Positions 44,962 through 62,341 of a stretch of DNA of 64,000 nucleotides are shown one piece after another. Both the position numbers and the translations under genes were made by a program. Source of the DNA: Streptomyces sp. I6 (lineage in GTDB: Bacteria > Actinomycetota > Actinomycetes > Streptomycetales > Streptomycetaceae); contig RHDP01000001.1 of the NCBI GenBank assembly GCA_003725745.1, positions 4,162,501 through 4,226,500 on the forward strand, given 5' to 3'. Under the pieces are notes generated by a model. It was not told the origin of the DNA and made no database searches. It worked only from the letters and a program-made list of their open reading frames with translations. The stretch's first letter is position 1. Each line of letters starts with the position of its first letter.

Positions 44962-46600
44962 GTGATGTGGCTATCCGGGCGCATGCGCCGAGCGGTCCCC
45001 GCCGTCGCGGCCGCCGTGGCCCTGTCGGCGGCCGTCTCCTGTTCGGTGGGCGGGTTCGGAGGCGCGGAGGCCCGGGGGCCGGCAGGGACCGGGCCGCCCA
45101 GGCTCCTTCGCCGACGGCACCGTCACCGGCGGCGTCCTCCCCGGAGTCGGCCCCTTCCCCGAAGCCCTCGTACCCCCTGTCCGGCGAACCCCGGACCATC
45201 CCCTCCGTCCGCGAACACCAGGCCGCCCGCGGACCGGGCTGGCGCCCGGCGGCGGGCAGCGCCGTCGTCGTCGCCAAGGGGAGCGAGGCGCTCGCCGACG
45301 AGGGCCGGCTGCTGGCCGGGGAGCTGAAGACGGGCTTCCGCGGCAACGGGCCCGTGAAGGCCGGCGACGTCGAACTGTCGCTCGACTCGGCGGGCGGCGG
45401 CGCACCCGAGTCGTACACCCTCACCACGCGCGACAACCGTGTCCGGATCACCGGGCCGGACGAGGCGGGGGTCTTCTACGGCACCCGCACCCTGAAGCAG
45501 GCCGTGCGCGCCGGCGGTGCGATGCCCGAGGGCGTCGTCCGCGACCGTCCCGACCGGCCGCAGCGCGGCCTGAACGTCGACATCGCGCGCAAGTACTTCA
45601 CCGTCGGCTGGCTCGAGGCGCGGCTGCGCGAGATGGCCGACCTCAAGCTCAACACGCTCGGACTGCACTTCGCCGACGACCAGGGGTTCCGGATCGCCTC
45701 CGACACCCACCCGAGGTCGTCTCCCGGGACCACCTCAGCAAGGCCGAGGTGCGCCGGATCCTCGCCCTCGCCCGCAGCCTGCACATCACCGTCGTACCCG
45801 AGATCGACTCGCCCGGGCACCTCGGCGCGGTCCTGCGGGCGCACCCCGGGCTCCAGCTGCGCAACGTCCAGGGCGTGCCCCGGCAGGGCGCCATCGACAT
45901 CTCCAAGCCGGAGTCCGCGCGGATCGTCGACGACCTGCTGCGGGAGTACGCGCAGCTCTTCCCCGGCCGCTGGTTCCACGTCGGCGCCGACGAGTACCAG
46001 GCGCTGACCGTGCGCGACCCGCAGACCTCCTACCCGCAGCTGGCCCGGGCGGCCGTGCAGAAGTACGGGCCGAACGCCACCGTGCGGGACCTGGCGACCG
46101 GCTGGCTGAACGACCGGGCCTCGGTGGTGCGCGCCGCGCGGAAGCAGCCCAAGGCGTGGAACGACGGCTTCTTCCGCGGCGGCGCGGTCTCCCCGGACAA
46201 GGACATCGAGGTCGAGTACTGGACGGGCAAGGAGATCGGCGCCCGGCCGCTGGCCGAGTACCTGGCGGAAGGCCGCAAGGTCGTCAACCTCAACGACGAG
46301 TACCTCTACTACGTGCTCGGCGAGCCCAACGAGTTCACCTACCCGACGGGCCGGCGCATCTACGAGGAGTGGACGCCGCTGGTGCTGCGGGGCACGACCC
46401 CCGTCCCCGCGCGCTACTCGGACCAGATCCTCGGCGGCCGCCTCGCCGTCTGGGGTGACCGCGCCCAGGCGCAGACCCAGGACCAGGTGGCGGCGGGCAT
46501 CCGCATGCCGCTGCGTGCGCTGGCCCAGAAGCTGTGGACGCCGGGGCCGCCCGCACTCTCCTGGGCGGACTTCAACGCGCTGGCGGACAGGCTCGGCTGA
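44962..46600 (+). CDS. GH20 beta-N-acetylhexosaminidase lipoprotein (two frameshifts)
   Basis: 546 residues after restoring one base at about 45074-45100 and one at 45710-45712. The N-terminus is a lipoprotein signal (ALSAAVSCSVGG). The family has a helper domain ending in FYGTRTLKQ and a barrel opening RGLNVDIARKYF with LHFADDQGFRI. The catalytic pair is in HVGADEY. It releases terminal GlcNAc from chitin or peptidoglycan fragments. AGGAGG precedes GTG 44962 (ATG 44965 also possible). I see no DasR-like operator in the 250-base upstream gap. Confidence 0.87.
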
Positions 46601-59347: not shown

Positions 59348-59907
59348 ATGCGGCGGGGTCTTCGGTGGGTGGTGGCGGGACTGGTCACGGCCGTGGCTTT
59401 CACGGCGCCTACGTGGTTGGGCGGGGCGGTGTTGCTGCCGTCGGCGGTGGCGGATGACGCGATCCGCTGGTCGCTGTCCTCGGCGCTCGGGGTGGTGCTG
59501 GCCACGCTGGCGGGAACGTGGGGCCAGGGCTTCGCCACCCGTACGCCTCGTCCGGAGGATGCGTCAGCCCTGCCGTCCGGTGGTCCGGTCACGGCGTCCG
59601 GCCCGCGCAGTGTCGCCGTCAAGGGCGATCCGACGGGCCCCATCTCCACGGGTGACACCGTGGTACGCGCCGTCCCGGACGGCTCTGCGGGCCGCCCGGA
59701 ACCCGACCCCCCGAACACCCCCGCACCCGCACCGGAACCCGCACCGGAACCCGCTCCGGCTCCGGCTCCGGGATCGTCTCAGCCCCGGCCCGAACCGGGG
59801 GTCGGCCGGGTTCGGTGACGGCGTCCGGGGAGCGGTCGATCGCCGTCGACGGCAACCCGCGGGGCGGCATCTCCACCGGCGACCAACTCGGGCAGGACCC
59901 CGCGTGA
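59348..59907 (+). CDS. Two-helix membrane protein with repeated RSVAV-TGD motif (one frameshift)
   Basis: 186 residues after adding a G to GGGGG at 59797-59801. Two hydrophobic segments (WVVAGLVTAVAFTAPTWLGG and WSLSSALGVVLATLAGTWG) lie in the first 70 residues. A Pro/Ala/Glu-rich linker separates two copies of a short motif, SGPRSVAVKGDPTGPISTGD and SGERSIAVDGNPRGGISTGD. The downstream NTPase starts with a third variant of it. The stop overlaps the NTPase GTG (GTGA). No known family; a membrane sensor or effector for the NTPase is my inference. Confidence 0.7.
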
Positions 59908-62341
59908 AGTGGTCCTTCAGGAAGCGGACCGCGAAACCACGAGCGCACCGGCCTGATGGCGTCCCCGGCATGGAAGCGTCCGGAACCCGGTCCGTCGCCA
60001 TCGACACCGGCGGCGGGGCCCTTCTGGGCAGCGTGCTCACCGGGGACAGTGCCACCGCGATCCAGTTACCGCCCGAGGCGTTCGTGCCCCCGGCCCATGT
60101 CCCGGCCCCACCGGGGGTGGACAACCTCCCGGCGCGCCCGGCGCTGTTCGTGGGACGGGCCCGCGAGCTGGAGCGTTTGGACGCCGCGCTCGCCTCGCAG
60201 GGTCAGGCGGTCGTCCAGGCGGTCCACGGGCTCGGCGGGATCGGCAAGAGCGCCCTGGCCGCGCACTGGGCCGCCACCCGCCCCCACGGCCACACCCCGA
60301 TCCGGTGGATCACCGCCGACAGCCCCGCAGCCGTCCAGCAGGGCCTGGCCGACCTCGCCACCGCCCTGCAACCCGCCCTCGCCCGCGCCCTGACCGCCGA
60401 GGAACTCGCCGAACGCGCCGCGCAGTGGCTGGCCACCCACACCGGCTGGCTGATCGTCCTGGACAACGTCAACGACCCCGCCGACATCGCCGCCCTGACC
60501 GCCCGCGCCCGAGGCGGACGCTTCCTGATCACCAGCCGCCTCGCCACCGCCTGGACCCACGCCACCACCGTGGTGCGCCTCGACATCCTCACACCCGCAG
60601 AGTCCCTGGCCCTGTTCACCCGCATCACCACCGCCCAGCACCCCGGGCGGGACCTGGACGGCGCCACCGAACTGTGCGAGGAACTCGGCCATCTGCCCCT
60701 GGCCATCGAACAAGCCGCCGCCTACCTGGCCCAGAACCCGCTCACCACTCCCCGCGCCTACCTCCACTTCCTCGCCCGGCATCCCGCGGACATGTACCGC
60801 CACGGCGCGGCCACCACCCCCACCGAACACACCATCGCCCGCACCTGGAACATCACCCTCGACCGCATCACCACCCTCCAACCCCACGCCGCCGACCTGC
60901 TACGCACCCTCGCCTGGTACGCCCCCGACCACATCCCCACCACCCTGACCGGACCCGCCGACCCGCCCACCCGCGACGCGGCACTCGGCCTGCTGGCCGC
61001 CTACAGCATGATCACCCCCGATGCCCCGACCGGCACCGTCGCCGTCCACCGCCTCGTCCAGGCCCTCACCCGCACCCCCGACCCCGACGACCCCCACCGC
61101 ACCCCCGAACTCGTCGACCAGGCCCGCCAACAAGCCACCACCAACCTCCACACCGCCTTCCCCGACACCTGGAGCACCCCCGCCACCTGGCCCACCTGGC
61201 GCACCCTCCTCCCCCACATCGACGCCCTCGCCGACCACACCACCCCCGACACCGACACCCCCACCACCGCCCACGTCCTCAACCGAACCGGACTCTTCCT
61301 CGACGACCAGGGCCAGCCCGCCCACGCCATCAGACACCTCCAACGCGCCCTCACCGACCGGACCCGGGTGCTGGGTGAGGACCACCCCGACACCCTGTCC
61401 TCCCGTAACAACCTCGCCGGTGCGTACGATTCTGTGGGGGATCTGGGGCGGGCGATCGAGCTGTATGAGCGGACGCTCACCGATATGGTGCGGGTGCTGG
61501 GTGAGGACCACCCCGTCACCCTGTCCTCCCGTAACAATCTCGCCGTCGCCTACCGGGTGGCGGGGGATGTGGGGCGTGCGGTTCCGCTGTTCGAGCAGAC
61601 CCTCACCGGCACGGTGCGGGTGCTGGGTGAGGACCACCCCGACACTCTGATCTCCCGTAACAACCTCGCCTACGCCTACAAGTCGGTGGGGGATCTGGGG
61701 CGGGCGATCGAGCTGTATGAGCGGACGCTCACCGATATGGTGCGGGTGCTGGGTGAGGACCACCCATCCACCCTGACCTCCCGTAACAACCTCGCGGGCG
61801 CCTACCAGGCGGCGGGGGATCTGGGGCGGGCGATCGAGCTGTATGAGCGGACGCTCACCGATATGGTGCGGGTGCTGGGTGAGGACCACCCATCCACCCT
61901 GACCTCCCGTAACAACCTCGCCGCCGCCTACCAGGCGGCGGGGATGTGGGGCGGGCGGTTCCGCTGTTCGAGCAGACGCTCACCGACCGGGTGCGGGTGC
62001 TGGGTGAGGACCACCCATCCACCCTGACCTCCCGTAACAACCTCGCCGCCGCCTACCAGGCGGCGGGGGATGTGGGGCGGGCGGTTCCGCTGTTCGAGCA
62101 GACGCTCACCGACCGGGTGCGGGTGCTGGGTGAGGACCACCCATCCACCCTGACCTCCCGTAACAACCTCGCCGGCGCGTACGAGTCGTCGGGGGATCTG
62201 GGGCGGGCGGTCCCGTTGTTCGAGCGGACCCTCACCGACATGGTGTGGGTGCTGGGGGAAGAGCATCCGATCACGGTGACGGTCCGAGGCAATCTCACCG
62301 CGGCCATGGCCGAACGCGAAGGCCGCACCGGGTCGTCGTGA
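59904..62341 (+). CDS. STAND (NB-ARC-like) NTPase with TPR array (one frameshift, TTA codon)
   Basis: 812 residues after adding a G to GGGG at 61940-61943. Order: the RSVAI-LTGD motif (27-48), Walker A HGLGGIGKSA (108-117), Walker B WLIVLDNVND (182-191), the FLITSR sensor (207-212), the LPLAIEQAA motif (264-272), a helical winged region, then seven 42-residue TPRs and a partial eighth. Codon 55 is TTA. STAND proteins are signal-gated switches that oligomerise on binding a trigger. No catalytic effector domain is fused, so the coupled membrane protein upstream may be the output partner. Confidence 0.82.
61353..62317 (+). repeat. Array of 126-bp TPR-coding repeats
   Basis: Seven full units and one partial, each 126 bp, coding for VLGEDHPSTLTSRNNLA-type kinesin-light-chain-like TPRs. 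Units 4-7 share long identical DNA stretches, so recent expansion or gene conversion is likely. The only frameshift of the gene lies in unit 5. Confidence 0.9.

Follow-up and report, generated by a model that had tools for sequence, protein, structure and literature searches.

A membrane hairpin protein and a STAND NTPase sharing a short motif in Streptomyces sp. I6: a candidate two-gene NLR signalling module

The genome of Streptomyces sp. I6 (7.05 Mb, GCA_003725745.1) contains two overlapping genes that code for a small membrane protein, P1, and for an NTPase of the STAND (signal transduction ATPases with numerous domains) class with NB-ARC domain and tetratricopeptide repeats (TPR). They are located in a stretch of 64,000 nt of contig RHDP01000001.1 (forward strand, 4,162,501-4,226,500, i.e. 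at 4.16-4.23 Mb), here called the window, to which all positions refer. Both sides of the pair carry a motif of about 22 residues (SGxRSxAVxG...STGD), present twice on the membrane-protein side (R1 and R2) and once at the N-terminus of the NTPase (R0). The features of the locus are the following.

59348..59818, + strand: first-frame part of the membrane protein P1 (from translation and alignments of relatives; the hairpin hidden Markov model, HMM, matches the upstream open reading frame in 12 of 78 relatives)
59582..59659, + strand: motif copy R1, the first on the effector side, PVTASGPRSVAVKGDPTGPISTGD (relatives' profile, E 1.7e-13 genome-wide)
59660..59815, + strand: Pro/Ala-rich repetitive linker between R1 and R2, inside which the frame is lost (from the sequence)
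59809..59892, + strand: motif copy R2, the second on the effector side, SVTASGERSIAVDGNPRGGISTGD (relatives' profile, E 1.6e-11; frame different from that of R1)
59904..59907, + strand: GTGA overlap of the NTPase GTG start and the stop of the R2 frame (from the sequence)
59904..62027, + strand: open part of the STAND NTPase (NB-ARC and TPR; Pfam and NCBIfam matches)
59973..60056, + strand: motif copy R0 at the NTPase N-terminus, MEASGTRSVAIDTGGGALLGSVLTGD, residues ~23-48 (relatives' profile, E 0.005; position aligned in 10 NTPases)
60165..60737, + strand: NB-ARC domain, NTPase residues 87-277 (Pfam)
61365..62256, + strand: TPR repeats in 126-bp (42-aa) units, ~7 copies with 88% matches (repeat analysis)
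61946..62341, + strand: TPR region continued in another frame (translation and TPR matches)

P1 has a short basic N-terminus, a two-helix hydrophobic hairpin (approximately residues 7-62), R1 and the start of the linker, which includes a 12-base tandem repeat at 59725-59759. The NTPase matches NB-ARC (3.4e-10) and TPR_10 (5.3e-57) in Pfam. An earlier note, made from the letters of this DNA, had described a two-helix protein, bearing the motif twice, that overlaps by GTGA with a TPR-containing STAND NTPase beginning with a third copy. The third copy was borne out by the translation and by its position in the orthologues. The GTGA and both proteins are also there, but the P1 frame stops at 59816-59818 and the overlap is with the next frame, the one of R2, which runs up to the TGA at 59905-59907; similarly, both copies lie upstream of the NTPase but R2 is in a different frame from R1. 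The NTPase frame closes at 62027 and the remaining TPRs are found in a different frame up to 62341, the array keeping a period of 126 bases save one interval of 125 (61872 to 61997), so that both genes are interrupted as sequenced. The approximately seven alike 126-bp repeats are likely prone to recombine, and their similarity (88% matches) could let the sensor change quickly.

The motif is specific to this locus within the genome. An HMM built with 20 copies from relatives, and with no sequence from the window, gave 44.8 bits for R1 and 39.0 bits for R2, while the best score in 30 shuffled six-frame windows was 10.4 bits. A 14-row profile of relatives' copies, again excluding the window, gave three matches in the whole genome at E<=1 and no more, namely R1, R2 and R0. 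Since all three are at the locus, the motif does not behave as a common linker found in many unrelated proteins, one of the two outcomes that the earlier note had named as its refutation. R0, weak when taken alone, is accepted because the orthologues hold a copy at the matching position of the NTPase (10 NTPases aligned). Across the phylum the motif profile at E<=1e-6 matched its own genome alone among 296, a weak negative because scoring was confined to 27 candidates per genome.

In other genomes, too, the two genes are found together. When 199 genomes of the genus were searched with a profile of the hairpin protein, eight of them gave a total of nine full-length matches (E<1e-40), window included, and eight of these nine loci (again counting the window) are placed directly 5' of an NTPase with the motif at its N-terminus. 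The genes overlap by 4 nt in nine of ten measured pairs and two bases intervene in the remaining one; one of the ten (L056) has another hairpin type. Two loci found later in a sample of 197 genomes of the order (3/197 positive, window included) were used as hold-outs, and in both the motif occurs twice, the NTPase bears R0 and the genes overlap by 4 nt; in one of them (L175) the NTPase frame has just 413 codons. The pair has a sporadic distribution. The hairpin protein of one relative matched 4 of 72,556 plasmid records, all from Streptomyces. The suspicion that homologues of the two genes might rarely co-occur was therefore dispelled by eight of nine loci and both hold-outs. As the genes stay together and the motif is specific, co-assembly, suggested from the beginning as the reason for the common motif, is the likeliest one.

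The membrane domain is a hairpin of ~65 residues with two transmembrane helices (two-TM). Neither Pfam nor NCBIfam gave a catalytic or toxin domain above cut-off in the hairpin protein of the window, and that of a close relative had no Pfam domain at E<=0.01. Eight effector proteins of relatives, this hairpin family included, reached the cut-off of neither database, three of them having sub-threshold matches. PARP, PspA and Cas5d were rejected as identities of the hairpin, their matches being below cut-off or weak and taken as low-complexity chance. We also compared the hairpin by hhalign with three groups of BELL-like proteins, picked from the published description and without a BELL profile, and no homology was found, the probabilities being 0.06, 0.35 and 0.13%. 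Of these groups, two gave 95% against each other, and the third gave poor values against both (22% and 0.1%). Three of the other two-helix groups are alike at 96-99%, and the comparison of the hairpin with a Micromonospora-type two-helix group gave an intermediate 42%. The labels BELL-like, RHIM-like and GH20-like, like the two-helix group names, are descriptive and do not come from profile matches.

A wider view was obtained from 78 loci recovered with the NTPase region as query in a scan of 84,980 species, each represented by one genome (best 80 of at least 517 relatives). Twelve have this hairpin family upstream, and all 12 show two motif matches upstream and one on the NTPase (E<=0.1), three of them recurring in the set used to build the HMMs. 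In others the upstream gene codes for a two-helix protein of another type or for a helical protein that fits the published description of BELL, and in L113 and L095 the same motif caps such BELL-fitting helical proteins. The NTPase N-terminus shared a segment with the upstream DNA, read in its two other frames (shuffle p<=0.01), in 43 of the 78 loci; repeating the comparison with the N-terminal stretch slightly lengthened gave 41 of 78, and 2 of 71 with the downstream DNA. Of the 78 loci, 71 had usable downstream sequence, none of which contained the motif of our locus. By similarity, the own upstream region was the best of 78 in just 12 loci, with a median rank of 7, a modest value because motif families are common to several loci.

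Searched with its HMM, this motif was present on both the NTPase and the upstream side in 23 loci, on the NTPase alone in 8, upstream alone in 2 and on neither in 45 (Fisher 5e-11). This HMM contains 21 copies from 11 loci, of which at least three are, judged by contig, among the 78 (L044=L064, L045=L065, L047=L067), so that its upstream matches are partly circular and its NTPase matches are not. Further motif types behave alike, their patterns having been set by eye after viewing the sequences: the second (GAIVAGGDV / GSNAAGRD) was found on both sides in 11 loci, on one side in none and on neither in 67 (Fisher 1e-13; the pattern also occurs in 3 downstream regions); a RHIM-like type on both in 3, on the NTPase only in 3, upstream only in 1 and on neither in 71 (p 0.001); and the fourth, in the same order, in 1, 4, 0 and 73, which is not significant (p 0.06).

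Within this motif type the copies of a locus vary together. For 18 loci with all three copies, the distances among R0 sequences track those among R1 and among R2 after removing the NB-ARC distance (partial Mantel 0.50 and 0.51, both p 0.0002, the floor for 5000 permutations), as direct pairing predicts. By direct similarity to R0, the own R2 had a mean rank of 4.8 of 18 (p 0.0002) and the own R1 of 6.8 (p 0.010), 9.5 being expected. In addition, 5 of the 78 loci have a hydrophobic N-terminal domain in one frame with the NTPase. The prediction gives this domain two helices in L114, L119 and L135, while in L111 and L121 a single helix passes the threshold. In three of these five (L111, L119 and L121) the motif HMM matches the stretch between this domain and the NTPase. 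The fused domains are other two-helix types than the hairpin of the window. These fusions support the membrane output that the earlier note had thought plausible.

The same note knew of no described system with this pairing. That statement does not hold, because the BELL-NLR pairs (NLR, NOD-like receptor) known as BASS (bacterial amyloid signalling sequences) and the fungal pair HET-S/NWD2 share its logic (PMC7889193). According to that text, in BASS an NLR and a BELL protein, the genes of which adjoin or overlap, are joined by a shared motif; such pairs are mostly those of filamentous bacteria, and the motifs are found less often on other, non-BELL effector domains. The three BASS sources (PMC7889193, PMC8086366, PMC12261475) agree with our pair in the adjacent or overlapping genes, the motif at the NLR N-terminus and a small, membrane-related partner that carries the motif C-terminally, and also in the filamentous Actinobacteria as hosts and in the existence of several motif families. 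In our locus an NLR with NB-ARC and TPR carries the motif N-terminally, and the same motif is C-terminal on the protein of the adjacent, overlapping gene. BELL, as portrayed there, is an alpha-helical bundle with one transmembrane helix, different from the ~65-residue two-helix hairpin found here, and the BELL effector was not recognized in the latter (hhalign at most 0.35%). Because the logic of BASS fits but the BELL feature does not, we file the pair as known wiring with a different membrane output; judged by sequence, it appears to have the same wiring as BASS and another way of acting at the membrane. The motif itself may already be catalogued as BASS4, since this type is reported to be often repeated on the effector side and to be the closest to HET-s. 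A literature search over titles and beginnings of abstracts, which did not cover the primary BASS paper, found none on two-TM effectors in amyloid NLR pairs.

With HET-S/NWD2, as described in PMC7889193, the likeness lies in the single copy on the NLR (as R0), two on the C-terminal tail of the effector (as R1 and R2), the neighbouring genes and an effector that acts at the membrane. No sequence likeness to the fungal motif (HRAM) was detected on matching the motif profile to PDB chains, and there is a two-TM hairpin instead of HeLo and NB-ARC/TPR instead of NACHT/WD. A described two-gene, membrane-associated and mainly actinobacterial system is also alike, but its second component is of the caspase type and here it is an NTPase. 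The TPR protein of the FxSxx-COOH systems (NF040586) has a similar NB-ARC/TPR architecture; here there are in addition the motif and the hairpin partner, and no FxsB nearby. AfsR has a SARP domain at its N-terminus, whereas the window NTPase has no N-terminal SARP domain and carries R0 instead. AfsR also provides the nearest solved structures by sequence (8k60 and 8jke, E 2e-16, profile positions 68-274 only).

Putting these data together, we consider it probable that the two genes form an NLR signalling module working like fungal NWD2/HET-S and bacterial BASS. The TPR arm of the NTPase would sense a trigger and the NB-ARC domain would oligomerise, clustering several copies of R0. The clustered R0 would then template or seed R1 and R2 on the C-terminal tail of the membrane protein, which the positive-inside reading (basic N-terminus followed by a hairpin) would place in the cytosol together with the NTPase. 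R1 and R2 would fold and stack onto R0, probably as a beta-arch or amyloid-like assembly. The two-helix hairpins of the effectors thus gathered would become a membrane-disturbing or pore-like assembly that would stop growth or kill the infected cell or hyphal compartment. The overlapping pair, the 2:1 stoichiometry of the motif, the matching within loci, the covariation and the hydrophobic-domain fusions support this model.

Several points weigh against it. The N-in/C-in topology, the binding between motifs, the amyloid fold, the damage to the membrane and the role in defence are what we infer, the steps of the mechanism being drawn from the NLR and HET-S fields (PMC7889193). The window R0 reaches 5.9 bits with the 20-copy HMM, alone not above chance, and its loop is three residues longer than in R1 and R2; R0 is also weak (E ~0.05) in L046 and L050. 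In 35 of the 78 loci there was no shared segment at p<=0.01, and the Mantel tests control only in part for common ancestry and for gene conversion among the copies of the motif. The ninth hairpin locus (L049) has the same 4-nt overlap with a motif-bearing protein that is no NTPase. Defence is without support from the context, the flanks being ordinary genes; neighbours beyond the partner were examined at three plasmid loci.

Other explanations can account for part of these data. The hairpin could be simply an anchor that holds the NTPase at the membrane through the motif, the NTPase acting on something else. This would agree with the lack of a catalytic or toxin domain on the hairpin of the window or of its close relative, and the fusions would equally yield a membrane-anchored NTPase; they tie the membrane domain functionally to the NTPase and are silent on killing versus anchoring. 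We regard the anchor as unlikely, as the stretch from the motif to NB-ARC shows no further output domain, and elsewhere the place of the hairpin is taken by BELL-like helical proteins, for which an effector role is a published hypothesis (PMC7889193). Similarly improbable, in our opinion, is that the motif is a non-amyloid docking peptide for a third protein, or makes an ordinary folded homotypic contact, so that both proteins would have a shared partner and no templating would take place. Actually, the motif is short, rich in Gly/Ser/Asp and poor in Gln, and its profile matched no PDB chain at E<=10 (in a library in which HET-s chains are assumed to be present), which would suit such a peptide. 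But R0 co-varies with R1 and R2, motif types of several unlike kinds show the same behaviour at this position, as direct pairing expects, and the flanking genes differ between the two annotated plasmid loci that have the pair.

The NCBIfam name of the NTPase would place the pair in a FxSxx-COOH peptide system, and its score is indeed above the cut-off of the FxSxx_TPR model (381.8 versus 300 bits). The fused NTPase of another genus also passes (576 bits), which indicates that this model is broad, and the sole match above cut-off in the genome to FxsB, the radical SAM protein of these systems, is at 1.076 Mb, ~3.1 Mb from the window. With no FxsB near the locus, membership was rejected as very improbable. 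There is finally the condition of the window copy itself, which could be a decaying pseudogene module, inactive here, of a conserved system that lives elsewhere, as two frame breaks, one per gene, would suggest. We find this rather doubtful. The flanks of each break still resemble the relatives or the TPR models. A GH20-like hexosaminidase gene of the window (44967-46600), unrelated to the pair, is likewise split between two frames, and the completeness score of the genome is 87%, both pointing to indel errors in the assembly. The nearest relative found has R1 and R2 within a single frame of 256 codons, and in relative L014/L043 both copies are in one frame; the genes of the relatives overlap and their NTPase has one copy. 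The frame breaks are thus likely, though not proven, to be assembly indels, and the window copy may have no function or may just appear broken because of these errors.

If the module works in the proposed manner, the layout of HET-S/NWD2 would also occur in bacteria, combined there with another membrane effector, and there would be a handle on the role of many NB-ARC/TPR proteins of Streptomyces. It would extend amyloid-type NLR signalling to effectors small enough for rebuilding and testing the switch as a whole, and the two-plus-one layout, the covariation and the natural fusions predict which protein talks to which. A more general proposal can be advanced tentatively, and we hold it as possible and somewhat short of even: that beside BELL the Actinobacteria use several unrelated minimal two-TM hairpin families as NLR-triggered membrane executioners, each wired by a privately co-evolving and often doubled amyloid-type motif, as a bacterial counterpart of HET-S/NWD2. 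The motif would be a swappable plug, which would also join hairpins to non-NLR membrane proteins (L049 and L051, see below) and whose second copy would be dispensable on the fusion of membrane domain and NTPase.

As regards the surroundings, the pair is flanked in the window by genes for a methylmalonyl-CoA mutase, a LysE exporter, a WhiJ-type pair and a polysialyltransferase. The earlier note had seen the module beside a Tn3 remnant and a WhiJ-type cluster. No Tn3 remnant was found: PF01526 has no match in the whole genome, and tblastn with the Tn3 transposases of two plasmids returned only the NTPase itself and one match at E 0.38. The WhiJ/DUF397 genes are real in the window, but as a meaningful context they fail, being matched in 6 of 96 relative loci searched (L061, L107, L113, L117, L130 and L138). 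With the PADLOC models the pieces of the NTPase were unmatched at E<=1, and the hairpin protein gave only 0.029 to Cas5d, taken as chance. Carriage by viruses or phages was rejected, as a pattern scan of IMG/VR gave no relative of the NTPase or the hairpin, and tblastn with the hairpin protein of one relative had no match in 50,697 phage records.

Some related loci show variations of the arrangement. In L049 (7637-9276), where the hairpin protein bears the motif twice, the partner has ~394 codons, starts with the motif and continues with one hydrophobic segment (by eye), its last 385 residues having no Pfam or NCBIfam match. L051 (173-1571) has a two-helix protein that carries the motif twice; the frame beside it, of 302 codons, bears the motif and a single hydrophobic segment, and tblastn with the NTPase finds none within this 5.6-kb contig. 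The FxsB match of the Streptomyces sp. I6 genome (1069164-1076852 region) is located ~5 kb from a paralogous NB-ARC/TPR gene (1.069-1.071 Mb). The second motif type has the same layout of small upstream protein and NTPase in L102, L106, L107, L120, L122, L123 and L130, and in L099, L108 and L121 the SGD type and the RHIM-like YQAG type are found in one effector or in one fused NTPase. In L071 (2596-5028) the NTPase is directly preceded by a second, like NTPase of 811 codons. Among the plasmids, L058 (1159-4626) has two more open reading frames upstream of the pair that carry a similar motif close to the N-terminus, in one case weakly (E 0.69), and in L046 (3289-5375) a BELL-like helical protein ends in the same motif beside a further NTPase, ~7 kb from the hairpin-NTPase pair of that plasmid.

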